Source of the DNA: Isoptericola cucumis
GTDB taxonomy: Bacteria; Actinomycetota; Actinomycetes; Actinomycetales; Cellulomonadaceae
Assembly: GCF_014635665.1 (NCBI RefSeq)
Contig: NZ_BMDG01000012.1
Location: 1 to 64,000 of the forward strand
Length of the DNA: 64,000 nucleotides
Direction of reading: 5' to 3'
Both the position numbers and the translations under genes were made by a program. Positions 31,387-43,594 of this stretch are shown here, piece after piece (positions within the stretch are counted from its first letter, which is position 1; every line of letters starts with the position of its first letter). Below the pieces are notes generated by a model that did not search any database, was not told the DNA's origin, and saw only the letters and a list, made by a program, of their open reading frames with translations.

Positions 31387-32648
31387 GCGCCACGAGCGGT
31401 GCCGAGAGCGCCACGAGCAGCGCGCCGCAGCCCGTGCTCCTGCGCGAGCCGCCGCGGTTCGCGCGCGACCGCGCTGTCCACGCGTGGATCGGCGTCAAGG
31501 CCCTCTCCGACGCCGGCGACGCGCTGTGGACGATCGCGCTGGCGTGGACGGCCGTGCAGGTCGCGTCCCCGGCGGTCGCCGGCTTCGTCGTCGCCGCGGG
31601 CACCGTCCCGCGGGCCGCCGTCCTGCTGTTCGGCGGCGTGCTCGCCGACCGGGCGAACGCGCGGCACGTCATGCTCCTGTTCAACCTCCTGCGGGTCGGC
31701 GTGCTGGTCGCCACCGCGCTGTGGGCCCTGTCGTCGGCGCCGTCGGTGGGGCTGCTCGCCGTCGCCGCCGTCGCGTTCGGCGTCTGCGACGCCTTCTACG
31801 AGCCGTCCGCCGCCACGATCGCGCGCCAGCTCGTCCGCACGGAGGACCTCCCGTCGTACAGCGCGGTGTCGCAGACGGCGTCGCGGCTGGCCACGATGGC
31901 GGGTGCCGCGGCCGGCGGGTTCCTCGTCGCGCACACGGGGCTCGCGGGCAGCGCGTCGGTCAACGCGGTCACCTTCACCCTCGTCGTCGCCTTCGTGGTC
32001 GTCTGGCTGCGGCCGCGGTTCGGGCTCCCCCGCGCCGAGCCGGAGTCCCCGTGGCGCGGGATCCGGCGCGGCTTCGGGCACCTGCGGGGCGCGCCGGCGA
32101 CGCGCACGCTCGTGCTCGCGCTGTCGGGCCTCAACCTCGCCGTCGGGCCCGCGGTCGGCATCGGGATCGCGCTGCGCGCGCACGACGAGGGCTGGGGCGC
32201 CCCGGCCGTCGGGATCCTGGAGGCCTGCATCGGGCTGGGCGCGGCGCTCGGCGCCCTGTCGGTCGCCCGCTGGCGGCCCCGGCACGAGGCGCGGGCCGGG
32301 TTCCGCGCGCTCGTCGTGCAGGGTGCGGCGATCTGCGCCCTCGGCGTCGGCCCGCTCCCGCTCGGCGGCGCGGCGTGCCTCCTGATCGGGCTCACGGCCG
32401 GGTACGCCTCGGCGCTGCTCGGCGCGACGTTCGCCGGCACCGTCGACCCCTCGTACCTGGGGCGGATGGCGTCGATCACCCGGCTCGGCGACGACGTGCT
32501 CATGCCGCTGGCGATGGCCGCGTTCGGCGCGCTGGCCTCCGTGACCGCCCTCTGGGTGCCGTTCGTGCTGTACGGCTCCGCCATGGTCCTGCTGATGACG
32601 GTCCCGTTGCGCAACCCCCTGTTCCGCGAGCTCTCCCTGCGGACCTGA
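31383..32648 (+). CDS. MFS transporter
   Basis: A 421-residue protein with 10-12 membrane helices of the MFS_3/enterobactin-exporter-like type: FGGVLADRANARHVMLLFNLLRVGV is the loop 2-3 motif (GxxADRxxxR). Acts as an efflux pump for an unknown drug or metabolite. Transcribed with the ArsR-like regulator. Confidence 0.92.
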   Translation: MSATSGAESATSSAPQPVLLREPPRFARDRAVHAWIGVKALSDAGDALWTIALAWTAVQVASPAVAGFVVAAGTVPRAAVLLFGGVLADRANARHVMLLFNLLRVGVLVATALWALSSAPSVGLLAVAAVAFGVCDAFYEPSAATIARQLVRTEDLPSYSAVSQTASRLATMAGAAAGGFLVAHTGLAGSASVNAVTFTLVVAFVVVWLRPRFGLPRAEPESPWRGIRRGFGHLRGAPATRTLVLALSGLNLAVGPAVGIGIALRAHDEGWGAPAVGILEACIGLGAALGALSVARWRPRHEARAGFRALVVQGAAICALGVGPLPLGGAACLLIGLTAGYASALLGATFAGTVDPSYLGRMASITRLGDDVLMPLAMAAFGALASVTALWVPFVLYGSAMVLLMTVPLRNPLFRELSLRT

Positions 32649-32707
32649 CCGGCGCGCGCCGCCCGTCCTCGCTGGCGGACCTCCGCGCCCGGTGCTGTAC
32701 TGGGGTC

Positions 32708-33445
32708 ATGTCGGTCGGTGAGGACGAGCGCCGGGGCACCGGGCACCCGGACGAGCCGCACGGCGGCGGGCTCGCGCAACGCCTGAACTGGTTGCGCGCG
32801 GGCGTGCTGGGCGCCAACGACGGGATCGTCTCCGTCGCCGCCGTCGTGGTCGGCGTGGCGGCGGCGACGTCGGCGCACAGCGCGATCCTCACGGCCGGGC
32901 TGGCGGCCCTCGTCGGCGGCGCGATCTCGATGGCGCTCGGCGAGTACGTCTCCGTCTCCAGCCAGTCGGACTCCGAGAAGGCGCTCATCGCGCTCGAGAA
33001 GCACGAGCTCGCGACCATGCCCGAGGAGGAGTTCGACGAGCTCGTCGGCATCTACCGGGAGAAGGGGCTCAGCGAGGGCACGGCACGCCAGGTCGCCACG
33101 GAGCTCACCGCGCACGACCCGCTGCGCGCCCACCTGTCGGCCGAGCTGAACATCGACACCGACGACGTCGTGAGCCCGTGGCACGCCGCGATCGCGTCGT
33201 TCGCGGCCTTCACCATCGGCGGGATCCTGCCGTTCGCAGCCGTGCTCCTCATCCCGGAGCCGGCCAAGATCGTCGCGACGTTCCTGGTCGTGCTCGTGGC
33301 GCTCGCGGTCACCGGCGCGACCGCGGCGTGGATCGGCGGCGCCCCGCGGCTGCGGGCGACGGCGCGCGTCGTCGTCGGCGGGGCAGCCGCCCTGGGCGCG
33401 ACCTTCGCGATCGGCTCCTGGCTGGACACCACCGGCACGGTCTAG
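32708..33445 (+). CDS. VIT1/CCC1 family iron/manganese transporter
   Basis: A 245-residue protein of the VIT/CCC1 group: LNWLRAGVLGANDGIVSVAAVVVGV (first helix), GALVGG-type GGAISMALGEYVSVSSQSDSE (second helix), and HDPLRAHLSAELNID within the cytosolic metal-binding region, then three more helices. Moves Fe(II) or Mn(II) out of the cytoplasm. Ends TGTV-TAG, sharing the CTAG tetranucleotide with the stop of the convergent PucR gene. Confidence 0.93.
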   Translation: MSVGEDERRGTGHPDEPHGGGLAQRLNWLRAGVLGANDGIVSVAAVVVGVAAATSAHSAILTAGLAALVGGAISMALGEYVSVSSQSDSEKALIALEKHELATMPEEEFDELVGIYREKGLSEGTARQVATELTAHDPLRAHLSAELNIDTDDVVSPWHAAIASFAAFTIGGILPFAAVLLIPEPAKIVATFLVVLVALAVTGATAAWIGGAPRLRATARVVVGGAAALGATFAIGSWLDTTGTV

Positions 33446-34953
33446 CTGGCCGGCGCCGCCGCCCGGCACGCGAGGTGCACGGCGAGGCGGGCCTCGGGGT
33501 CGTCGAGGTCGATCCCGAGCGCCTCCTGGATGCGCTGCATGCGGCCCGTCACGGTGTTGCGGTGGACGCCGAGCGCGGTCGCGGTGGCCGCCACCTGCGA
33601 CTCGTGGTCGAGGAACGCGGTGAGGGTCGCCCGCTCCGCCGCGGTCAGCGGGGCGAGCAGCGCCTGCGCCGTCGGCACGAACGTGTCGTTGCCGGTCCAC
33701 GCCAGGAGCAGCTGCTCCAGCCCGAGCCGGTCGATGTGCAGGAACCAGGAGGACGACGACCGGGACACGGCGAGCCGCGCCGCGTCCGCCGCCTCCTCCA
33801 GCGTCGACACCATGCCCTGGCCGCCCTCCTGGAGCGAGCCGACGCCGGTCGCGACGGGGAACTGGTCGCCCGCCGTCGCGTGCAGGTCGCGCAGCGCGGC
33901 GATGCGCCGCTCCAGGTCGGTGGGCGACGGCCGGTCGGCGAACGTCAGCCAGCCCAGGACGCCGCGGCCGCGCGTGGTGACGTGCGAGTCCACCGGCAGC
34001 CGGCCCAGCTCGCGCCGCACGGCCCGCACGAGCTCGAAGGGGTCGAGCCGGCCGCGCGCCAGCATGCGGAACCCCACGTGGAAGCCGCTGGTGCGCCAGC
34101 CGCGCTCGCGCATCCGCCGCTCGACGTCCGGGTCCGGCGCGCCCTTCTGCTCCAGGAAGTCGCTCAGCAGCCCGGACGACAGCGAGACGTCGCTGACGGC
34201 GGCGATCTCGTCGAGCAGCAGCCGGGCCGCGACCATGGGCATGGCCACCTCCGCGGCGGTGGTGAGGGCGGCGAGCTGGGCGTCGGTCAGGGCCGCGCCG
34301 TGCACCACCAGGCGCAGGCCCTCGCGGCTCGGGCTCTCGACCCGCACCGATGCGCACGCGCCGGCGTCGGTGCGCACCGTGTCCGCCCAGCCGGAGAACG
34401 AGATCTCCTCGAGCACGCCCTGCGCCAGCGGCGGCCCCGCGCTGACGAGCACGCCGGCCCGGTCGACGAGCGCGACGCCGTACCCGAGGTTGGCGGCCAC
34501 GTGCCGCAGCTGGTCCGGCAGGTCCTCGGCGTGGTACTCGATCGACTGCGCCACGTGCCGCACCAGCGACAGCGTCATCGCGTCCCGCTGCTCGAGCATC
34601 TCCCAGCAGGTCCGGGCGAGCTCCCACGGCCGGTCGACCACCAGCAGCACCAGGCCCAGCCGGTCGGCGAGGCTCGCGGACTCGTGCACGGCCGCGGCGT
34701 CGGGCAGCACCAGCCCGGTGAAGCCCCGGTCCCGCACGCGCCGCAGCAGCGCGTCGAGCTGCCAGGGCGCGGACGGCGGCCCCGAGACGATGACCGCCAG
34801 GGCGGAGTCGGCCGACGGCGGGAGCGCGTCCTCGCTCGTCTCGACGACCGCGCTCGACCACGTCCGCTCCGTCCGCCCGCCGCCCGCGACGTGCCGGGTG
34901 CCGCCGTTGCGGGGGTGGGCCAGCAGGGCGGAGAGGGTCAGGCCGTCGCTCAT
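33442..34953 (-). CDS. PucR family transcriptional regulator
   Basis: A 503-residue regulator. N-terminal PucR/purine-catabolism-like domain (LTLSALLAHP, VIVSGPPSAPWQLDALLRRVRDRGFTGLVL, WELARTCWEMLEQRD), a central GGDEF-like/CdaR region, and C-terminal HTH_30: AFLDHESQVAATATALGVHRNTVTGRMQRIQEALGIDL. PucR proteins activate catabolic operons when substrate or intermediate is present. GGGAGG precedes the ATG at 34953. Last gene of the NCS1/HyuA/DUF917 operon, overlapping the third DUF917 gene by 4 bp, so it probably controls that operon. Confidence 0.93.
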   Translation of the reverse strand: MSDGLTLSALLAHPRNGGTRHVAGGGRTERTWSSAVVETSEDALPPSADSALAVIVSGPPSAPWQLDALLRRVRDRGFTGLVLPDAAAVHESASLADRLGLVLLVVDRPWELARTCWEMLEQRDAMTLSLVRHVAQSIEYHAEDLPDQLRHVAANLGYGVALVDRAGVLVSAGPPLAQGVLEEISFSGWADTVRTDAGACASVRVESPSREGLRLVVHGAALTDAQLAALTTAAEVAMPMVAARLLLDEIAAVSDVSLSSGLLSDFLEQKGAPDPDVERRMRERGWRTSGFHVGFRMLARGRLDPFELVRAVRRELGRLPVDSHVTTRGRGVLGWLTFADRPSPTDLERRIAALRDLHATAGDQFPVATGVGSLQEGGQGMVSTLEEAADAARLAVSRSSSSWFLHIDRLGLEQLLLAWTGNDTFVPTAQALLAPLTAAERATLTAFLDHESQVAATATALGVHRNTVTGRMQRIQEALGIDLDDPEARLAVHLACRAAAPAS

Positions 34954-36062
34954 GTCGCCTCCCGGGTGTCGGTGCTCGTGCCGGCCGGGTCGGTGGCCGG
35001 GTCGGTAGCCGGGTCGGTGCCCGGGTCGGTGGCCAGGTCGAGGCCCTCGACGCCGAAGTGCGACGGGGTGACCGCGGCGAGCCGGTGGTCCGCGGCGCGC
35101 CACCACGCCGGCGCGGGCAGCGCGAGGACGAAGACGTTCCGCCCCGGCGTGAGCTCCGAGATCTGCACCACCTCGCGCGTCACGGCGTCCACGGCGGCGA
35201 CGACGGTCGGCGCCGCCGCGACGACGACCCCGTCCCGCAGCACCGCGAGGAGCTCGGTGCGCGCCACCAGGCGCACCACCGCGCCGTCGACGGCGCGCAG
35301 GTCGACGCTCGTCACCCCCGCGTGCGGGGTGGCCTGCGGGGCCCGCTGCACCCGCCCTTCGGCGAGGAACGTGCCGCCGATCGCCCGCGCGACGTCGTGC
35401 GGCTCGCCGAACCGGGCGTCGGCGAACCCCCGGCCCACCGACAGCACCCGCTCGTAGGCGCCGAGGACGGCGTGCCGGGCGAGGTCGCCCACCGTGAACC
35501 CGCCGAGCACGATCCCCGCCCAGCCGCCCGCCGTGGTGATCGCCGTGCGCAGCAGCCGTTCGACGTCGGCCGGGCGGGCCTGGGAGACCACGGCGACCCC
35601 GTCGGCACCCGTCGCGCAGCCGAGCACCACGCCCGGCACGCCGTCCACCAGCAGCGAGACCTGGTCGAACCCGGGGAACGCCCGCCCCATGAGGTCGGCG
35701 TCGACGAGCGTGCGCCCGGCGGCGGCGCCGAGCGTCGTCAGCCCGTTCATCCCGCCGATCTCCATCGAGCACAGCGCCGGGATCTCGGTGCCGACCCACC
35801 GCTCCACCGCGTCCGTCGCGATCCCGAACGGGTCGAGCGACGGCAGGCGCTCGCCGAGCAGCTCCGGCGACCCGGAGTACGCCACGGCCATGCAGGGCGT
35901 GGCGGGGTCGACGTCCGCGACGTCGTGCAGGGTGACCGGCCACGGCGCGCCACGACGGACCATCAGCTCGACAGGCCACGTCGCGCCGCCGCCGCCGGCA
36001 CCGAACAGCGCGCAGCCGGCCGCCAGGGCGGGCAGGTCGCTGGACCGAAGGACGTGGGCCAC
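34950..36062 (-). CDS. DUF917 (S-Me-THD-like) protein, divergent paralog C
   Basis: A 370-residue protein with the DUF917 glycine-rich start (CALFGAGGGGATWP), MEIGGMNGLTTLGAAAG and DADLMGRAFPGFDQ. It lacks the TTEGLRYGQRVRV box found near the end of its two neighbours; instead the equivalent reads ELTPGRNVFVLALPAP. The MGAPTVMVEK motif is also altered to VAYSGSPELLGERL. So it may have a different activity or be a partner subunit. A 12-bp DNA repeat near the end encodes TDP-type repeats. Start GTG 36062. ATGA overlap with PucR. Confidence 0.85.
   Translation of the reverse strand: MAHVLRSSDLPALAAGCALFGAGGGGATWPVELMVRRGAPWPVTLHDVADVDPATPCMAVAYSGSPELLGERLPSLDPFGIATDAVERWVGTEIPALCSMEIGGMNGLTTLGAAAGRTLVDADLMGRAFPGFDQVSLLVDGVPGVVLGCATGADGVAVVSQARPADVERLLRTAITTAGGWAGIVLGGFTVGDLARHAVLGAYERVLSVGRGFADARFGEPHDVARAIGGTFLAEGRVQRAPQATPHAGVTSVDLRAVDGAVVRLVARTELLAVLRDGVVVAAAPTVVAAVDAVTREVVQISELTPGRNVFVLALPAPAWWRAADHRLAAVTPSHFGVEGLDLATDPGTDPATDPATDPAGTSTDTREAT
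34987..35034. repeat. Four 12-bp tandem repeats at the 3' end of DUF917 paralog C
   Basis: Four copies of GGGTCGGTGGCC (two with one substitution). Being 12 bp, copy number changes keep frame. They encode repeated ATDP on the minus strand. Confidence 0.85.
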
Positions 36063-36087
36063 GCCCTGCAGCCTAGGAGGCCGCGCA

Positions 36088-37221
36088 CTACGGGAGCGCG
36101 GCGTCCTGCAGGGCGAGCTCCTCGACGGGCACGAACTCCTCCGTCAGCCCGAAGGCCTGCGGGCCGAAGGCGTCCAGCGCCGCCGGGGTGCGCATCATCG
36201 CGGGGGTCGAGATCCCGAGCACGCGCACGCGCTGCCCGTAGCGCAGCCCCTCCGTCGTGATCGGCTCGGCGGTCTCCGCCTCCAGCACGCACACCAGGTC
36301 GGGCACGAGGGCGACGGTACGGCCGTCGACGCGCGCGACGACGTTCTCGTTCTGGAACTCCAGCTCGCACACCCGCTCGTCCTGCGAGGACCCGTCTCCC
36401 GAGGACAGGGGGACGATGCGGGCGCTGCCCTGCGCGAACCCGTCGGTGGTACGCCGCTCGACGTCCCGCACCTTGCCGACGAACAGCTCCCGCACGTGGC
36501 TGTAGGGCGTGCGGGCCAGGGTGTCGGCGATCGCGTCGAACGGCGAGCGCTTCTCCTCCCGGGCGAGCCGGATCGCCCGGCCCAGGTCCAGCGCCATCGA
36601 CACGGTGCGCGGGACGGCGGTGCGCCGCACGTCGGCGCCGGTCATCGCGTACTCCGCGATGTGTCCCACCCCGCCCAGCCGGATCGTCACGGCCCTCGCG
36701 AGCCACTCCATCTGGCGGTCGTCGTCGCCGGTGTCGATCACCACCTGCTCGCCCCGCTCGCCGGCGAGCGCCAGCGGCGAGCCGTGCACGCCGTAGACGG
36801 CGAACGTCTCCATCGACAGCTCGGGGAACGCGCGCCCCATGCCGTCCGCGTCGACCACCGGCAGGCCCGTCTCCGCCGCCACGACCAGCGGGATCATGGA
36901 GTTGATCCCGCCGCACTCGATGGGCATGGTGGCGTCCGCCGTCCGGCCCAGGTGCCGCTCCAGCGTCCGCAGGGCCAGCAGCGGCTCCGTGCCGGCCGGG
37001 ATCTTCTCGACCATGACGGTGGGCGCGCCCATCTGCGCGGTCGGGACGACGAACAGGTCGTCGGCGAGGTCGTCGGGGTCGAGCATCGTGATCGTCCGGT
37101 CCCCGAGCACCTGCTCCACGAGCCGGCGGCCGATGTACGGGTCTCCCCCGCCCCCGGTGCCGAGCAGGGTGGCGCCCCGGGCGAGGTCGGGCAGGTCGCG
37201 GGCGGTCAGCTCCCAGCTCAT
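36088..37221 (-). CDS. DUF917 (S-methylthiohydantoin desulfurase-like) protein, paralog B
   Basis: A 377-residue protein with full family motifs: LGTGGGGDPYIG (residues 20-31), QMGAPTVMVEKIP, ECGGINSMIPL, DADGMGRAFPE, ELEFQNENVVAR and TTEGLRYGQRVRV. The family, formerly DUF917, is now linked with thiohydantoin desulfurases of ergothioneine-type breakdown (established knowledge, from memory). Conserved Cys/His/Asp residues suggest metal-dependent hydrolysis. Overlaps the next gene by 4 bp. Expected to act on the same pathway as HyuA. Confidence 0.9.
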   Translation of the reverse strand: MSWELTARDLPDLARGATLLGTGGGGDPYIGRRLVEQVLGDRTITMLDPDDLADDLFVVPTAQMGAPTVMVEKIPAGTEPLLALRTLERHLGRTADATMPIECGGINSMIPLVVAAETGLPVVDADGMGRAFPELSMETFAVYGVHGSPLALAGERGEQVVIDTGDDDRQMEWLARAVTIRLGGVGHIAEYAMTGADVRRTAVPRTVSMALDLGRAIRLAREEKRSPFDAIADTLARTPYSHVRELFVGKVRDVERRTTDGFAQGSARIVPLSSGDGSSQDERVCELEFQNENVVARVDGRTVALVPDLVCVLEAETAEPITTEGLRYGQRVRVLGISTPAMMRTPAALDAFGPQAFGLTEEFVPVEELALQDAALP

Positions 37222-38297
37222 GCCGCGACCGCCGCCGCCCCGTCGAACCGGTGGGGCGCGACGTCGTACCCGAAGTACCCGGGCCCGACCATGGCGAGCG
37301 CCTCGTCGGAGTGCCAGCGGGGGTCGGCGGGGGCGGCGACCACGCGCACGCGCTGGCCGTAGCGCAGCCCCTCGGTGGTGATCGCCTCGCCGGTGTCGTG
37401 CTCGAGCACGATGATCAGGTCGGGGGTCGTGACGAGCACCCGGTCGTCGTGGCGGGCCAGGAGGTGCTCGTTCTGGAACTCCAGGACGAGGTCGCCGCCG
37501 GCCCCCTCGATGCGGGCGCGGCCGCGCGCGAACCCGGTGGTCGTCGCCCGCTCGACGTCGACGACCTTGCCGGCGAACAGCTCCCGGCCGCCGAGCCGCT
37601 CGACGATGCGCCGCACGGGGTCGTCGTGCTCGGCGCGGGCGGCCGCGATCTCCTCGCCGAGGCCGACGCAGGTGCTCAGGGAGCCGCGCACGAGGCTCTC
37701 GCGGGCCTGGGCGCCGCTCATCGGGAAGCCGGCGATCATCACCGAGCAGCCCATCTCGACGCAGGCGACGCGGGCGATGCGCTCGGTCCAGGTGTTGTCG
37801 ACGGTGGTCAGCACGCCGGTGTTGCCCTTGTCGTCGGCGAACGACAGCGGCGACGCCGTGACGCCGTAGAGGGTGGGCAGCACCATCTGCAGCTCCGGGA
37901 ACGCCCGGCCCATGCCGTCGGCGTCGAGCAGCGGCACGCCGAGGGCGGCCGCGGCCGCCACGGGGACCGTCGAGTTCACCCCGCCCACCTCGGCGCAGGC
38001 GACGTGGCTGACGGTGCGGCCCAGCACGTGCTCGAGGGCGCGCACGGACGCGACGACCTCGTCGAGGTTGGGCAGCTTCTCGACCATCACGGTGGGGGCG
38101 CCCATCATCGCCGCGGTGACGACGAGCGCGTCGTCACCGAGCTCGTCCAGGCCGACGACCGTGACGGGGCCGTGCTCGCGGATCGCCTGGGCGGCGAGCA
38201 GCGAGCCGATGTACGGGTCGCCGCCGCCGCCGGTGCCGAGGATCGCGGCGCCGCGCGCCAGCGGGCGGACCTGGTCGACGTCGATCGTCCAGCTCAT
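37218..38297 (-). CDS. DUF917 (S-methylthiohydantoin desulfurase-like) protein, paralog A
   Basis: A 359-residue protein with LGTGGGGDPYIGSLLAAQ, MMGAPTVMVEKLP, AEVGGVNSTVPVAAAA, DADGMGRAFPELQMV, LEFQNEHLLARHDD and TTEGLRYGQRVRV, all shared with paralog B. GGAGG lies before the ATG, and the preceding HyuA-like stop is 1 bp away. The first of three tandem copies; their divergence from each other implies an old duplication with specialised roles (hetero-oligomer or different substrates). Confidence 0.9.
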   Translation of the reverse strand: MSWTIDVDQVRPLARGAAILGTGGGGDPYIGSLLAAQAIREHGPVTVVGLDELGDDALVVTAAMMGAPTVMVEKLPNLDEVVASVRALEHVLGRTVSHVACAEVGGVNSTVPVAAAAALGVPLLDADGMGRAFPELQMVLPTLYGVTASPLSFADDKGNTGVLTTVDNTWTERIARVACVEMGCSVMIAGFPMSGAQARESLVRGSLSTCVGLGEEIAAARAEHDDPVRRIVERLGGRELFAGKVVDVERATTTGFARGRARIEGAGGDLVLEFQNEHLLARHDDRVLVTTPDLIIVLEHDTGEAITTEGLRYGQRVRVVAAPADPRWHSDEALAMVGPGYFGYDVAPHRFDGAAAVAA

Positions 38298-38298
38298 C

Positions 38299-39846
38299 TC
38301 AGGCCTCCATGTCCAGGTCGCCGACGGCCTTGGCCCGGATGCGGGTGGCGTTGCCCGGCAGGTACGGGATCGGCACCTCGTCGAAGTCGACGAGCTTGAC
38401 CGACTCGGGCAGGGCGCCCGCGGCGATGGTCTTGTCGACGGTCTCCTGGCGGACGGCCGCCAGCGCGTCCTCCCGGCCGCCGGGGGCGATCGAGTAGATC
38501 TTGTCGACCTCGCCGCCGACCTGCGCGATCGAGGCCCCGATCGCGTTGGCCACGGAGTAGTGGCCGGGCCGGTGCACCTCGCCGAACTCGCCGAGCGTGT
38601 CGGGCAGCAGGACCGAGCCGCCGCCGACGGCGACGACGGGGATGCGCTCCGCGCTGGTGCGCATGCGGTCCACGGTCTCCTCCACCCGCTGCGCGACCCG
38701 CTTGAGCACGGCGTCGACGAACGCCGGGTCCAGGTGGGCGACGCGGCCCGGGTCGCCGATCTCGGCGCGGCCCGCGGCCACGGCGACGTCCGTGGCGGTG
38801 AGCGTCGTGCCGCCGAAGACGAGCGCCTCGCTCGTCAGGCGGTAGCCGACCGACTGCGGGCCGACCTCCGCCGTCTGCTCGTCGACCAGAGAGCCGCCGC
38901 CGATGCCGAGGGACAGCACGTCCGGCATCCGGAAGTTCGTGCGCACCCCTGCCACCGTCACGTCCGTCGTGGTCTCGCGGGGGAAGCCGTTGACGAGCAG
39001 GCCGACGTCGGCCGTCGTGCCGCCGACGTCGATGACCGCGCAGGTCTCCAGCCCGCTGGTGGACGCCGCGCCGCGCATCGAGTTGGTCGGGCCGGAGGCG
39101 AACGTCGCCACCGGGTACCGGCGCACGTAGTCCTCGTCCATGAGGGTGCCGTCGTTCTGGCTGAGGAAGATCGGCGCGGCGATGCCCTCCGCGCGCACGG
39201 CCGAGGTGAGGCCGTCGACGATCTCGGTCGCCAGCTCGCGCAACGCCGCGTTGATCACGGTCGCGTTCTCGCGCTCGAGCAGGCCGATGCGGCCGATCTC
39301 GTGGGACAGCGAGATGGCCACGTCGTCGCCCAGCTCGGACCGGAGCACCTCCGCGGCCCGGAGCTCCAGGTCGTGGTTGACGGGGCTGAACACCGAGGAG
39401 ATCGCGACGGACCGGACCCCGTGGGCGGCCATGTCGCCGGCGTGCCGGCGCAGCTCGTCCGGGTCGAGCGGCGAGATGGGCCGCCCGTCGAACTCGTAGC
39501 CGCCGTGGGCCAGGTAGGTGCGCGCCGAGATCGCCTCGGAGAGCTTCTCCGGCCAGTCGACCAGCGGGGGCAGCGCCCGCGTGGCGGGCAGGCCCAGGCG
39601 CAGCGCGGCCGTCGGCGCGAGGCGGCGGGCCTCCACGAGGGCGTTGATGAAGTGGGTCGTGCCGATCATGACGGCCGAGACCTGCCCGCCGTCGAACGGG
39701 TGCTGCTCCCGCAGGCCGCGGAGCGCGTCGACGATCCCGCCGGTCACGTCCGAGCTCGTCGACTTCTTCACCCCGGCGAGCACGGTCGTGCCCGCCATGA
39801 GGACGGCGTCGGTGTTGGTGCCACCGACATCGATTCCGATGTGCAT
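38299..39846 (-). CDS. Hydantoinase/oxoprolinase (HyuA-like) family protein
   Basis: A 515-residue protein of the HyuA/acetophenone-carboxylase-alpha fold. Hydantoinase N-terminal motif GIDVGGTNTDAVL (ATP phosphate binding), TTHFINALVEARRL, central DVGGTTADVGLL (second phosphate loop) and a C-terminal GIGGGSLVD. HyuA subunits use ATP to activate cyclic amides or hydantoins before hydrolysis. No HyuB partner is adjacent, unusual since HyuA and HyuB normally pair; the three DUF917 proteins may take over. GAGGAG precedes the ATG. Confidence 0.92.
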   Translation of the reverse strand: MHIGIDVGGTNTDAVLMAGTTVLAGVKKSTSSDVTGGIVDALRGLREQHPFDGGQVSAVMIGTTHFINALVEARRLAPTAALRLGLPATRALPPLVDWPEKLSEAISARTYLAHGGYEFDGRPISPLDPDELRRHAGDMAAHGVRSVAISSVFSPVNHDLELRAAEVLRSELGDDVAISLSHEIGRIGLLERENATVINAALRELATEIVDGLTSAVRAEGIAAPIFLSQNDGTLMDEDYVRRYPVATFASGPTNSMRGAASTSGLETCAVIDVGGTTADVGLLVNGFPRETTTDVTVAGVRTNFRMPDVLSLGIGGGSLVDEQTAEVGPQSVGYRLTSEALVFGGTTLTATDVAVAAGRAEIGDPGRVAHLDPAFVDAVLKRVAQRVEETVDRMRTSAERIPVVAVGGGSVLLPDTLGEFGEVHRPGHYSVANAIGASIAQVGGEVDKIYSIAPGGREDALAAVRQETVDKTIAAGALPESVKLVDFDEVPIPYLPGNATRIRAKAVGDLDMEA

Positions 39847-39886
39847 CTCACTCCTCGGTTGGTGCGCGGGCCGGTCCGGCCCCAGG

Positions 39887-41227
39887 TCAGTCGGCGAGCG
39901 CCGGCTCCGGGCGAGCGCCCGGCTGCGTCGTGACGGCCCGCCCGACGCCGCGGACGAGGCCGAGCTTCCCGGCGACGACGTAGAGCAGCATGGCCAGCAC
40001 GACGGAGTTGATCGACGGGATGCCCACGTGGACGAAGTAGCCCACCAGGGACGACACGAGCCAGACGACGAGCGTCGCGGGCACCACGCGGGGCGCCGAG
40101 GCGGGCAGCGTGCCCTCCGCGCGGCTGGCGTCCAGGTCGCCGCGCCACCGGCGCACGACGAAGTACTCCGCGACCATGATCCCGGCGATCGGCGGGAAGG
40201 CGACGCCGAGGACCGTGAGGAAGTCGGTGAACCTCCCGAGGATCCCGGCGGCGGCCAGGACGGACCCCACCACGCCGAGCACGACGGTCGTGATCGTGCG
40301 GGACAGGGTGCGGCCGAACGTCGTGGACACGAAGTTCACGAGGCCGAGCGACGACGAGTAGAGGTTCCAGTCGTTGATCTTCAGCGTGCCCGTCAGCACG
40401 ATGAGCAGCCCGACGAAGCCGATCGACGACGTGATGATGGCGACGACGTTGCCGGTGCCGGCGGCGTGCGCGAGCAGCACCCCGGCGAGCCCGATGACGA
40501 ACTCGCCGAGCGTGACGCCGACGACGGTCTGCTTGACGACGTCCTTGCCGGACCGGTTGAAGCGGGTCATGTCGGCGGTGATGATGGCGCCGACGATGAG
40601 GCCGCCCGCGACGATCCCGGTCCCGGCGGCGATGCTCAGCTCGGGCCCGGGCGGCGGCGAGGTGAGCAGCTCGTCGAGCGGGTGCCGGGTCAGCTCGGTG
40701 ACGATCGACCAGCCGACGAGCACGAGGAACAGCGGCACGGTGATGTTGGCGAGCCACTGCATGCCGCCGAAGCCGACGGCCACGATCGCGGTGACCAGGA
40801 GGCCGAAGATCAGGCACCAGGCCCAGACGGGCAGCACGCCCGGCATGAGCGCCTCCAGCGACTCGGCCGAGATCGCGCTCTGGATGCCGAACCAGCCGAT
40901 CAGGCTGATGCCGATGGCGAGGCCGACCAGCGACGCGCCCACCTCGCCGAACCCGGTCCAGCGGGCCAGGAGCGCCGTGTTGAGGCCCTCCTTCTGGCCC
41001 ACGATCCCGACGACGCACATGATCACCTCGAGGATGATCGAGCCGAAGAGGAAGGCGAGCACCGCGTTCCCGAACGTCATCCCGTAGCCGAGCGTGGCGC
41101 CCATGAGGAACTGGGACAGGGCCGACACCTGGCCGAACCGCTGGACCGCGATCGCGAACCAGTGGCGCTGCGCGTGCGTCGCCACCCGCGCGAGCGCGAA
41201 GTCGTCCGACTCCGGGTGTTGTGCCAT
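39887..41227 (-). CDS. NCS1 family permease (purine/cytosine/hydantoin type)
   Basis: A 446-residue transporter with about 12 helices, CodB-like. Typical features: LGYGMTFGNAVLAFLFGSIILE (helix 1), GWFGIQSAISAESL (helix 3) and TADMTRFNRSGKD (helix 6 loop). NCS1 proteins import nucleobases, allantoin and hydantoins with Na+ or H+. AGGAG 5 nt before the ATG. First gene of the operon; gap of 40 bp to HyuA. Its promoter region has a TAGCGT box (41270-41275, minus strand) and a palindrome at 41328-41344. Confidence 0.93.
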   Translation of the reverse strand: MAQHPESDDFALARVATHAQRHWFAIAVQRFGQVSALSQFLMGATLGYGMTFGNAVLAFLFGSIILEVIMCVVGIVGQKEGLNTALLARWTGFGEVGASLVGLAIGISLIGWFGIQSAISAESLEALMPGVLPVWAWCLIFGLLVTAIVAVGFGGMQWLANITVPLFLVLVGWSIVTELTRHPLDELLTSPPPGPELSIAAGTGIVAGGLIVGAIITADMTRFNRSGKDVVKQTVVGVTLGEFVIGLAGVLLAHAAGTGNVVAIITSSIGFVGLLIVLTGTLKINDWNLYSSSLGLVNFVSTTFGRTLSRTITTVVLGVVGSVLAAAGILGRFTDFLTVLGVAFPPIAGIMVAEYFVVRRWRGDLDASRAEGTLPASAPRVVPATLVVWLVSSLVGYFVHVGIPSINSVVLAMLLYVVAGKLGLVRGVGRAVTTQPGARPEPALAD

Positions 41228-41327
41228 CGGGACTCCTGTGGCTGAGAGGGCTGGGCGTGTCGCGTGCCGACGCTAGACAGCGCAGCCACACCCGCCCAGA
41301 GACACTCTGCACAAGTTCCGCAGCGAT

Positions 41328-41344
41328 CTGTGCGACCCGCACAG
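41328..41344. promoter_or_regulatory. Palindrome upstream of the NCS1/HyuA/DUF917 operon
   Basis: CTGTGCG-ACC-CGCACAG, perfect 7-bp arms with 3-nt spacer. It lies about 55-75 bp upstream of the proposed -10 box on the minus strand, a usual position for an activator such as PucR. A related half-site, CTGCACAAG, is at 41307-41315. Confidence 0.5.
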
Positions 41345-41416: not shown

Positions 41417-43594
41417 TCAGCGGCGGACGGCGCCCGGCCGCAGGTCCAGCCGCCGCAGGAGCTGCGCGTTCAGCGCCACCACCACGGTGGACGCCGACAT
41501 CAGCAGCGCGCCGACCGACATCGGCAGCACGAACCCGACCGGCGCGAGCACGCCTGCCGCCAGCGGCACGGACAGCAGGTTGTAGCCCGCCGCCCACCAC
41601 AGGTTCTGCTTCATCTTGCGGTAGCTGGCACGCGACAGCTCGATCACCGAGAGCACCGACCGCGGGTCGTCGCTGGCGAGGATGACGCCCGCCGAGGCGA
41701 TGGCGACGTCGGTGCCCGCGCCGATCGCGATGCCGACGTCGGCCTGGGCCAGCGCCGGGGCGTCGTTGACGCCGTCCCCCACCATCGCGACCTTCCGCCC
41801 CTCGTGCTGCAGCTCGAGGACCTTCGCGGACTTTTCCTCGGGCCGCACCCCGGCGAAGTACCGGTCCACGCCGAGCTCGTCCGCGACCGACCGGGCCACG
41901 GCTTCCGCGTCGCCGGTGATCATCACGACCTGCACGCCGAGCCGGTGCAGCGCCTCGACCGCCTCCGCGGACTCCTGGCGCACCTCGTCCGCGAGCTTCA
42001 GCCCGCCGACGACGACGCCGTCGCGCAGCACGTGCAGGATGATCGCGCCGTCGGCGCGCCAGGCCTCGGCCTCGCGGACCTCCGCCGCCCCCTGCTCCTC
42101 CAGGAGCCGCGGCCCGCCGACGCGCACCTCGTGCCCGTCGACCGTCGCGACGACGCCCACCGCGGGGGACGACGAGAAGTCGCGCGCCCGCGGCACCGTC
42201 AGCCCGCGCTCGGCGGCGGCCCGGACGATCGCCTTCGCGAGCGGGTGCTCGCTGTCCGACTCGGCGGCGGCGGCGAGCGCCAGCACGCCGTCGGCGTCCG
42301 GGCCGTCCGCGCCGCCGGACGCGGTGACGACGTCGGAGACGGTCGGCTCGCCCTTGGTCAGCGTCCCGGTCTTGTCGAACAGGACGGTGTCGACGGTGCG
42401 CATGCTCTCGAGGGCCAGGCGGTCCTTGACGAGGACACCGCCGCGGGCAGCGCGCTCGGTCGCGATGGAGACGACCAGCGGGATGGCCAGGCCCAGGGCG
42501 TGGGGGCAGGCGATCACGAGGACGGTGACGGTGCGCACGACGGCGTCGTCCGGCATCCCGAGCGCCGACCACACGATCGCGGTGACCACCGCGGCGCCGA
42601 GCGCGAACCAGAACAGCCAGCCCGCGGCGACGTCCGCCAGGCGCTGGGCCCGGGACGAGGAGGCCTGCGCCTCGGTGACGAGCCGCTGGATGCCGGCGAG
42701 GGCAGTGTCGTCGCCGGTCGCGCTGACCTCGACGCGAAGGCCGGAGTCCGTGGCGACGGTGCCGGCGGTGACGGTGTCGCCGGTCGTGCGGGCGACGGTG
42801 CGCGACTCCCCCGTGACCATCGACTCGTCCATCTCCGCGCGGCCGTCGACCACCCGGCCGTCGGCGGGGACGCTGCCGCCCGGGCGCACGAGGACGACGT
42901 CGCCCACGGCCAGCTCCGTCGGGGACACGGTGACCACCTGGTCGCCGTCGGGCCCGTGCTCGACGCGCTCCGCCTCGTCCGGCAGCAGCGCGGCCAGGGA
43001 GTCGAGTGCCGACGTGGTCTGCGCGAGGGAGCGCATCTCGACCCAGTGGCCGAGCAGCATGATGACGACCAGCAGCGCGAGCTCCCACCAGAAGTCGAGC
43101 TGGTGGTCCAGCAGCCCGAGGCTCGCGCCCATCGAGGCGACGAACGCGACCGTGATCGCCAGGCCGATGAGCAGCATCATCCCGGGCTGGCGGGCCTTGA
43201 TCTCGTCCACCGCGCCGGTGAGGAACGGGCGCCCGCCCCAGGCGAAGATCACCGTGCCGAGCACCGGCGACACCCAGGGCACCCAGGCCGCGTCGGGAAG
43301 CTCGTAGCCCAGCAGCATCGCGAACATGCCGGACAGCGCCACGGTGGGCACCGCGAGCGCCAGCATGATCCAGAACAGCCGCCGGAACTGCGCCACGTGG
43401 TCGCCGTGACCCGCATGCCCGCCGTGGCCGCCGTGGCCTTCGTGATCACCGTGGCCCTCATGAGCGCCGTGGCCTTCGTGGCCACCGTGGCCCTCGTGAC
43501 CACCGTGGCCCTCGTGCCCGGCGACCTCCGCGTGCTGGTGGTGCTCGTGCTCGCGGACGTCGTCGGCGACGTCGTGGCCGTGCTCGCGCGACAT
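41417..43594 (-). CDS. Copper-translocating P1B-type ATPase (CopB-like, CPH motif)
   Basis: A 725-residue heavy-metal ATPase. The first ~65 residues are a His-rich leader of repeated HEGHGG units, replacing CXXC metal-binding domains. Then eight membrane helices, TGES-like MVTGESR, CPH in [15 protein letters not shown] (membrane metal site), [11 protein letters not shown] (phosphorylation), and [20 protein letters not shown] (hinge). CPH-type P1B-3 pumps export Cu(II)/Cu(I). Ribosome site GAGGAG before ATG. Two CsoR-like boxes sit just upstream, so copper-induced expression is likely; no csoR gene is in this window. Confidence 0.95.

Follow-up and report, generated by a model that had tools for sequence, protein, structure and literature searches.

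The 64-kb stretch of contig NZ_BMDG01000012.1 from Isoptericola cucumis (assembly GCF_014635665.1), hereafter the window, to which all positions refer, carries on its minus strand six genes arranged head to tail. They encode a permease, a short HyuA-like protein, three DUF917 proteins (DUF917-A, -B and -C) and a PucR-type regulator. Down the operon, the intergenic gaps amount to 40, 1, −4, 25 and −4 base pairs (bp). The features are as follows (aa, amino acids):

39887-41227, minus strand: NCS1 permease (PF02133)
38299-39846, minus strand: short HyuA-like protein of the ASKHA ATPase type, 515 aa (PF05378 and PF01968)
37218-38297, minus strand: DUF917-A (S-Me-THD-like), probable catalytic partner of HyuA (PF06032 and PF20906)
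36088-37221, minus strand: DUF917-B, second probable catalytic partner of HyuA (PF06032 and PF20906); 4-bp overlap with DUF917-A
34950-36062, minus strand: DUF917-C, decayed paralog and probable co-sensor of PucR (PF06032 and PF20906); GTG start codon
33442-34953, minus strand: PucR-family regulator, 503 aa (PF13556, HTH_30; PF17853, GGDEF_2); ATGA overlap with DUF917-C
41329-41343, no strand assigned: candidate operator with the palindromic sequence TGTGC-N5-GCACA; its centre lies 109 bp upstream of the permease start

All three DUF917 proteins score above the Pfam cut-offs for PF06032 and PF20906. The N-terminal 270 residues of PucR have no Pfam match, and in three of seven relatives PF07905 matches below its cut-off. 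Gene coordinates and Pfam families confirm the six-gene, one-strand operon proposed in the initial annotation. Of the extent given there (33442-41344) the end at 33442 stands, but the other end does not: the permease gene starts at 41227, and positions 41228-41344 are upstream region containing the palindrome. The operon reflects more than chance, because numerous further loci of actinobacteria share its gene order.

Distribution of the DUF917 triplet

Related loci (given L numbers below) were retrieved from GTDB contigs with an alignment of 12 HyuA proteins, and the best 80 of 543 confirmed relatives, whose record titles are actinobacterial, were used. DUF917-A, -B and -C occur together in at least 44 of these 80 loci (38 + 3 + 2 + 1), a lower bound given that L144, L152, L174, L183 and L214 are under-labelled, identical or split sequences having been dropped from the tree; L144 and L174 duplicate the contigs L074 and L111, both of which have the full triplet. 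The remaining loci carry A and C, B and C, A and B, or A or B. The triplet, which had been thought unusual, is the standard arrangement for this operon class, in which A or B can be absent. Among the training loci, four contigs are present twice (L074=L144, L109=L180, L111=L174, L117=L214), gene calls are split in L164 and L183, and A and B are read as one open reading frame in L152. In this last locus, a metagenome-assembled contig, the frame runs through both genes with no stop in between (L152:9377-11662), a possible A-B fusion. No single open reading frame holding DUF917 together with PucR or HyuA was found in the 187 loci scanned.

Within the genus, PF06032 is present in one of the 18 genomes, namely the window's own, in which the operon's three copies are its only matches. 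At wider ranks it was detected in 9 of 221 family genomes, 40 of 396 order genomes, 42 of 394 genomes sampled from the class and 18 of 396 sampled from the phylum. That 17 congeners lack it points to a horizontal gain or to repeated losses.

Divergence of DUF917-C, linkage to PucR and the upstream palindrome

DUF917-A is 46% identical to B and 28% identical to C. In a maximum-likelihood tree of 73 proteins, the groups of A and B received supports of 100/99 and 100/100, respectively, and C formed one branch (99/92); the end branch of the window's C protein measures 0.69 as compared to 0.19 for A and 0.17 for B. In a quick tree of 294 DUF917 proteins, support was low for the full C clade (47) and reached 93 for its core of 81 members. 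Divergence is also evident from individual residues. Window A and B each retain all 45 residues whose invariance on the A/B side reaches 97% or more, whereas window C keeps 92% of those in the N-domain and 52% of those in the C-domain (C clade means 78% and 64%, respectively), in a comparison tilted in favour of A/B, on which the invariants were defined. Over the 24 invariants common to at least four of five outgroup DUF917 proteins, mean retention is 99% for A/B and 82% for C. The structural model of DUF917-C (predicted local distance difference test score, pLDDT, 91.7) has PDB entry 2O3I as top match. Thus, the divergence of paralog C pointed out in the initial annotation is borne out by a clade of its own, lost invariants and a long branch. 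We consider it the most informative trait of the operon; it points to a role in regulation and not to one more step of degradation.

In 82 of the 84 other members of window C's clade in the 294-protein tree, PucR is encoded by the next gene on the same strand, and the other two members lie at contig ends; on the A/B side, the same holds for 4 of 202 proteins. When a PucR model that catches distant PucR proteins was used, the numbers were 85 of 88 for C (the other three at contig ends) versus 5 of 215 for A/B, the latter cases including five outgroup DUF917 proteins. A held-out set of 39 loci from the class sample, unused before, yielded 7/7 for C and 0/43 for A/B, with near ties between the C and A/B models in L308 (353 versus 351) and L316 (306 versus 310). 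The pair is also found in other arrangements: C-PucR precedes the permease in Brevibacterium (L188) and in L120, is divergent in Arthrobacter bambusae (L209) and L306, and occupies the other strand in L308. In these five loci the linkage persists apart from the permease-HyuA unit; DUF917-C is a probable partner of PucR.

A further setting is provided by seven order-level loci (L082, L083, L086, L092, L094, L099, L140) that combine a C-type DUF917 with PucR and have neither A nor B. Here, a HyuA-like gene encoding ~440-495 aa directly precedes C-PucR. Six of these HyuA-like proteins were compared with 392 genomes of the order, which returned seven matches with E<1e-150, that is the six sources and L140, the next match being at 1e-39. 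The same triad is present in the held-out loci L303 (HyuA-like frame of at most 327 aa) and L312. The HyuA-like proteins of the triads (eight aligned plus L140) have lost the phosphate motifs as well as the GGGS motif; intact HyuA proteins keep the three motifs tested in 133, 134 and 135 of 135 cases. HyuB is encoded in all seven order-level triad loci, and one HyuB query sequence did not find it in L303 and L312. A triad of this kind beside a complete HyuB-containing system resembles a sensor assembled from components of enzymes. As a side observation, the L083 locus also contains a binding protein, an ATP-binding cassette (ABC) ATPase and a permease.

The palindrome was found from the upstream regions of 28 operons, comprising the window and its close relatives. 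When one mismatch at most is allowed, 61 of 89 operons (24/28 close, 37/61 far) have TGTGC-N5-GCACA at a distance of 60-190 bp from the permease, on its upstream side; in the remainder of these loci the background rate is 0.0041 per 130 bp. An exact copy is found in 19 operons, and the window site is exact. In the 61 far operons, which were unused in discovery, TGTGC ranks first of 1024 five-letter arms with 37 occurrences; the next arm, a one-letter neighbour, reaches 15 and the median is 0. Likewise, a spacer of 5 bp gives 37 occurrences and any other spacer at most 3. The window not counted, the palindrome accompanies 58 of 73 operons with C versus 2 of 15 without C, a comparison whose Fisher value treats related operons as independent; one of the two C-less operons with a site, L149, hits the contig end right after B. 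It is absent from all five operons (four distinct loci) that have PucR but no C. Of four operon permeases in the held-out set, the C-bearing one has a site with one mismatch and the three without C have none. The palindrome is presented as a candidate operator, to which PucR would bind. Taken alone, it does not predict a wider regulon, as the own genome contains 6 exact sites, the window site being one of them, versus 13 for a reversed control pattern.

As to the surroundings of the operon, a VIT1-family gene on the plus strand (31484-33445) converges on pucR, the stop codons overlapping at 33442-33445. Upstream, about 190 bp away and on the operon's strand, lies a gene for a P-type ATPase (E1-E2_ATPase; 41417-43594).

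HyuA, DUF917-A/B and the permease

The short HyuA protein scores 124.7 bits with PF05378 and 107.9 bits with PF01968, both above cut-off, the Hydantoinase_A match covering only positions 1-177 of 291. Both phosphate motifs, P1 (DxGGTxTD) and P2 (DxGGT), are present, and the sequence following VGPQSVG, YRLTSEALVFGG, is mostly invariant across 12 aligned HyuA proteins. A full-length HyuA is encoded near A/B-type DUF917 genes (at most 2.6 kb away, same strand) in 205 of 215 training and 35 of 43 held-out cases; the 18 cases without it include the five outgroup DUF917 proteins, contig ends and loci with HyuA matched in part. HyuB, searched for with one query sequence, was found in 4 of 140 training and 0 of 37 held-out loci with A/B-type DUF917, and PF02538 has no match in the own genome. 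Thus, the absence of HyuB, which had likewise been called unusual, is what most loci with A/B-type DUF917 display. Because A/B adjoins HyuA nearly always and HyuB is rarely present, DUF917 probably takes HyuB's place. The four A/B loci with HyuB are L121, L128, L129 and L133, of which L128 and L129 have the order permease-DUF917-HyuA-DUF917.

A HyuB-like fold of DUF917 was considered and rejected. The model of DUF917-A (pLDDT 95.0) has the fold of PDB 2O3I, and when the PDB was searched by Foldseek with the models of A and C, 2O3I alone had E<0.001; no HyuB entry was among the best 50 of 794 (A) and 635 (C) matches with E up to 10.

Pairs of HyuA and DUF917 were also observed together with a common solute-binding protein family in L079, L080, L087, L091, L104, L105, L113, L121, L125, L133 and L134; in L079, the only locus checked, this is SBP_bac_5, with an ABC permease beside it, so that some of these relatives may act on peptide-derived rings. 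Another group of DUF917 loci (L123, L130, L132, L135, L137, L138) has a neighbour family in common, which matches peptidase M29 in L123, the sole one checked, and some also contain a DUF1177 gene (checked in L115).

CodB, at 90.5 bits, is the solved structure nearest to the permease, followed by Mhp1 at 35 bits. According to the part of the source cited here, the side chains of CodB that bind cytosine are Gln105, Trp108 and Phe204, and Gln121 and Asn318 are the main hydrogen-bonding residues of Mhp1 for hydantoin (PMC9379551). In alignments with both solved sequences (three MAFFT modes), Gln116, Asn288 and Trp112 of the window permease align with Gln121, Asn318 and Trp117 of Mhp1, the corresponding residues of CodB being Gly112, Ala283 and Trp108; the match of Asn288 to Asn318 requires a one-residue gap, and a pairwise HMMER alignment puts Asn318 against another residue. 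The three residues are unchanged in 92/92 operon-type permeases, window included, but also occur in 15 or 16 of 16 distant NCS1 relatives and are hence not hydantoin-specific. At the place of the second stacking aromatic residue (Mhp1 Trp220, CodB Phe204) the window has Leu (Phe 58, Leu 28, other 6 of 92). The place of the CodB Na+ ligand Thr278 is Lys (window Lys283) in 92/92 operon-type permeases, which suggests that transport may proceed without Na+. As far as can be judged from these residues, the permease would favour a cyclic imide or ureide over cytosine, and hydantoin is not singled out.

Among 148 loci scanned, five distinct ones (L120, L188, L216, L217 and L109=L180) have an Asp/Glu/hydantoin racemase gene (PF01177) within or next to them, with Pfam run on four. 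Such neighbours suit a chiral ring compound; the four racemases tested had no NCBIfam match. A hydantoin-like substrate is plausible.

A possible division of labour, its alternatives and known systems

Taken together, we tentatively favour an account, with confidence a little short of even, in which the window encodes an inducible catabolic operon with A/B opening a ring together with HyuA, C serving as decayed co-sensor of PucR, and PucR and C acting at the palindrome. In this operon, the NCS1 permease would import a small cyclic imide or ureide, hydantoin-like in nature. Short HyuA would phosphorylate the ring and so activate it, a mechanism that has been put forward for the long HyuA enzymes; ring opening would fall to DUF917-A and/or -B in HyuB's stead. 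DUF917-C, its fold kept and its conserved site partly lost, would be the ligand-sensing partner of PucR, and PucR together with C would act at TGTGC-N5-GCACA upstream of the permease. The residues D125, D127, G130 and R131, which are nearly or fully kept in C, would suit a retained binding pocket. It is also possible, although we would not yet lean towards it, that HyuA and DUF917 enzymes have been co-opted more generally as sensing apparatus for PucR, with a decayed DUF917, in some lineages joined by a HyuA without ATP motifs, binding the substrate and signalling to the adjacent PucR. The window would then represent a stage with only a DUF917 copy decayed, and the nine triads one with both proteins decayed. 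The link of a decayed DUF917 (and, elsewhere, a decayed HyuA) to PucR, and likewise the candidate operator, appear to be new: no DUF917-PucR link is described in the literature searched, outside which most subscription journals lie.

Several observations weigh against the favoured account. The adenosine motif GxxPGP of long HyuA is missing from the short HyuA sequence, so its use of ATP is not certain. The own genome has no N-carbamoylase above cut-off for the next step of a hydantoin route, TIGR01879 giving two partial matches of 39.5 and 27.3 bits versus a cut-off of 204. As to C, the definition of the invariants on A/B, mentioned above, tilts the comparison in favour of A/B; D125, D127, G130, R131 and E277 are nearly or fully kept, and four Lentzea/Nocardia members retain 100% of the N-domain and 81% of the C-domain invariants, so that some C proteins may be active. 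PucR occurs without C in five entries representing four distinct loci (L117=L214, L205, L211, L218); C is tied to PucR more strictly than PucR to C. Finally, of the 70 operons that combine C with PucR, 13 lack the palindrome, and among the separate C-PucR units and triads scanned an exact site is present in L306 only; L308, L209 and L120 have versions with two mismatches, and L188, L083, L303 and L312 have none.

Some of these points would also fit a scenario in which all three DUF917 proteins are enzymes, C performing a separate catalytic step or acting on the inducer by means of its changed C-terminal domain, and its place before PucR being the insertion site of a third gene. The retained fold and residues D125/D127/R131/E277, the little decayed Lentzea/Nocardia members and L213, where C is the only DUF917 called behind HyuA, speak for this scenario. 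Nevertheless, we regard it as unlikely, if worth serious consideration: operons with A or B but no C exist (L169, L177, L196, L201, L205, L211, L218), C stays with PucR in other arrangements, and C relatives pair with HyuA-like proteins devoid of ATP motifs.

Inherited gene order without functional meaning could also account for the adjacency of C and PucR, since many cases stem from one operon type inherited as a block and four contigs count twice in the training set. This is improbable, as the link also holds where strand or context differs (L120/L188, L209, L306, L308), in nine triads without A or B, and in 7/7 held-out cases, one of which (L308) is scored almost alike by the C and A/B models.

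We give little credit to a cytosine or purine salvage operon, which the similarity of the permease to CodB and the name of the PucR family, which refers to purine catabolism, might suggest. In the 92 operon-type permeases, the place of the cytosine-binding Gln105 of CodB is taken by Leu (84), Ala (5) or Cys (3); furthermore, the permease scores 170 with the cytosine permease model (cut-off 326), and Pfam identifies no deaminase or purine enzyme among the six genes.

The ergothioneine route gave the desulfurase families of DUF917 their names. Degradation of thiohydantoins, e.g. from ergothioneine breakdown, is very unlikely here. Although the names that Pfam and NCBIfam give to DUF917 derive from (S-methyl) thiohydantoin desulfurase and the own genome has one urocanase-family gene, DUF917-A, -B and -C reach only 128.7, 85 and 46 bits with NF058532 (S-methyl thiohydantoin desulfurase, cut-off 450) and 88.7, 67 and 34 bits with NF058529 (thiohydantoin desulfurase, cut-off 440), and a single urocanase is what the ordinary histidine route has, no genome search having been aimed at ergothionase or sulfur genes. 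Thus, of the original proposal that the operon imports and degrades a (thio)hydantoin, the hydantoin-like part is a fair reading in view of the Mhp1 residues in 92/92 permeases and the racemases, and the thiohydantoin part is not upheld.

Returning to the favoured account, it would provide a division of labour for a widespread family that is often labelled by its DUF number, A/B being a substitute for HyuB and C a partner of the regulator. It would also explain HyuA genes without HyuB. In practical terms, C or C-PucR offers a route to the substrate via a bound ligand, and the palindrome an operator sequence for reporter work.

Several known systems come close. ATP-dependent HyuA/HyuB hydrolases such as caprolactamase CapAB, 5-oxoprolinase and N-methylhydantoinase have the phosphate motifs in common with the window HyuA, which differs in being short and lacking GxxPGP, and DUF917 stands where HyuB would. 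For caprolactamase, an excerpt proposes that the HyuA-type subunit uses ATP to activate the lactam, which the metal-containing subunit of HyuB type opens (PMC8453981). For DUF917, a passage in a paper on cyclodipeptide oxidase terms the family uncharacterised and proposes a hydantoinase (PMC11055893). Sets of permease, DUF917 and hydantoinase are also described for Firmicutes, namely CDR20291_1615-1617 of C. difficile, with consecutive locus tags (PMC12915319, in part), and WP_005715297-299 of L. rhamnosus, with consecutive accession numbers, adjacency not being stated in the part cited (PMC7513527). In E. limosum, the portion of the report cited here places PucR beside DUF917 (PMC9503626). 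Compared by description, the Firmicutes sets have similar gene content, and the cited parts of these sources mention neither a triplet nor a PucR-linked C paralog.

The (S-methyl) thiohydantoin desulfurases of NF058532/NF058529 share the Pfam families PF06032/PF20906 with the window DUF917 proteins, which are set apart by scores of 34-129 bits versus cut-offs of 440-450. The window permease has the same Gln, Asn and Trp as Mhp1 at aligned places, but is nearer to CodB overall and differs from Mhp1 by Leu in place of Trp220 and by Lys283 at the Na+ ligand place. As for the regulator, Bachler is said to have reported in 2005 that DhaR is controlled by the kinase subunits, with corepressor/coactivator roles of DhaK/DhaL. 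In the part of PMC6643234 cited here, DhaK/DhaL and DhaR likewise exemplify catabolic enzyme subunits that partner the operon's own regulator. This is a likeness in logic: the proteins are unrelated, and in the window the partner of the regulator would be a separate, decayed paralog of the enzyme.

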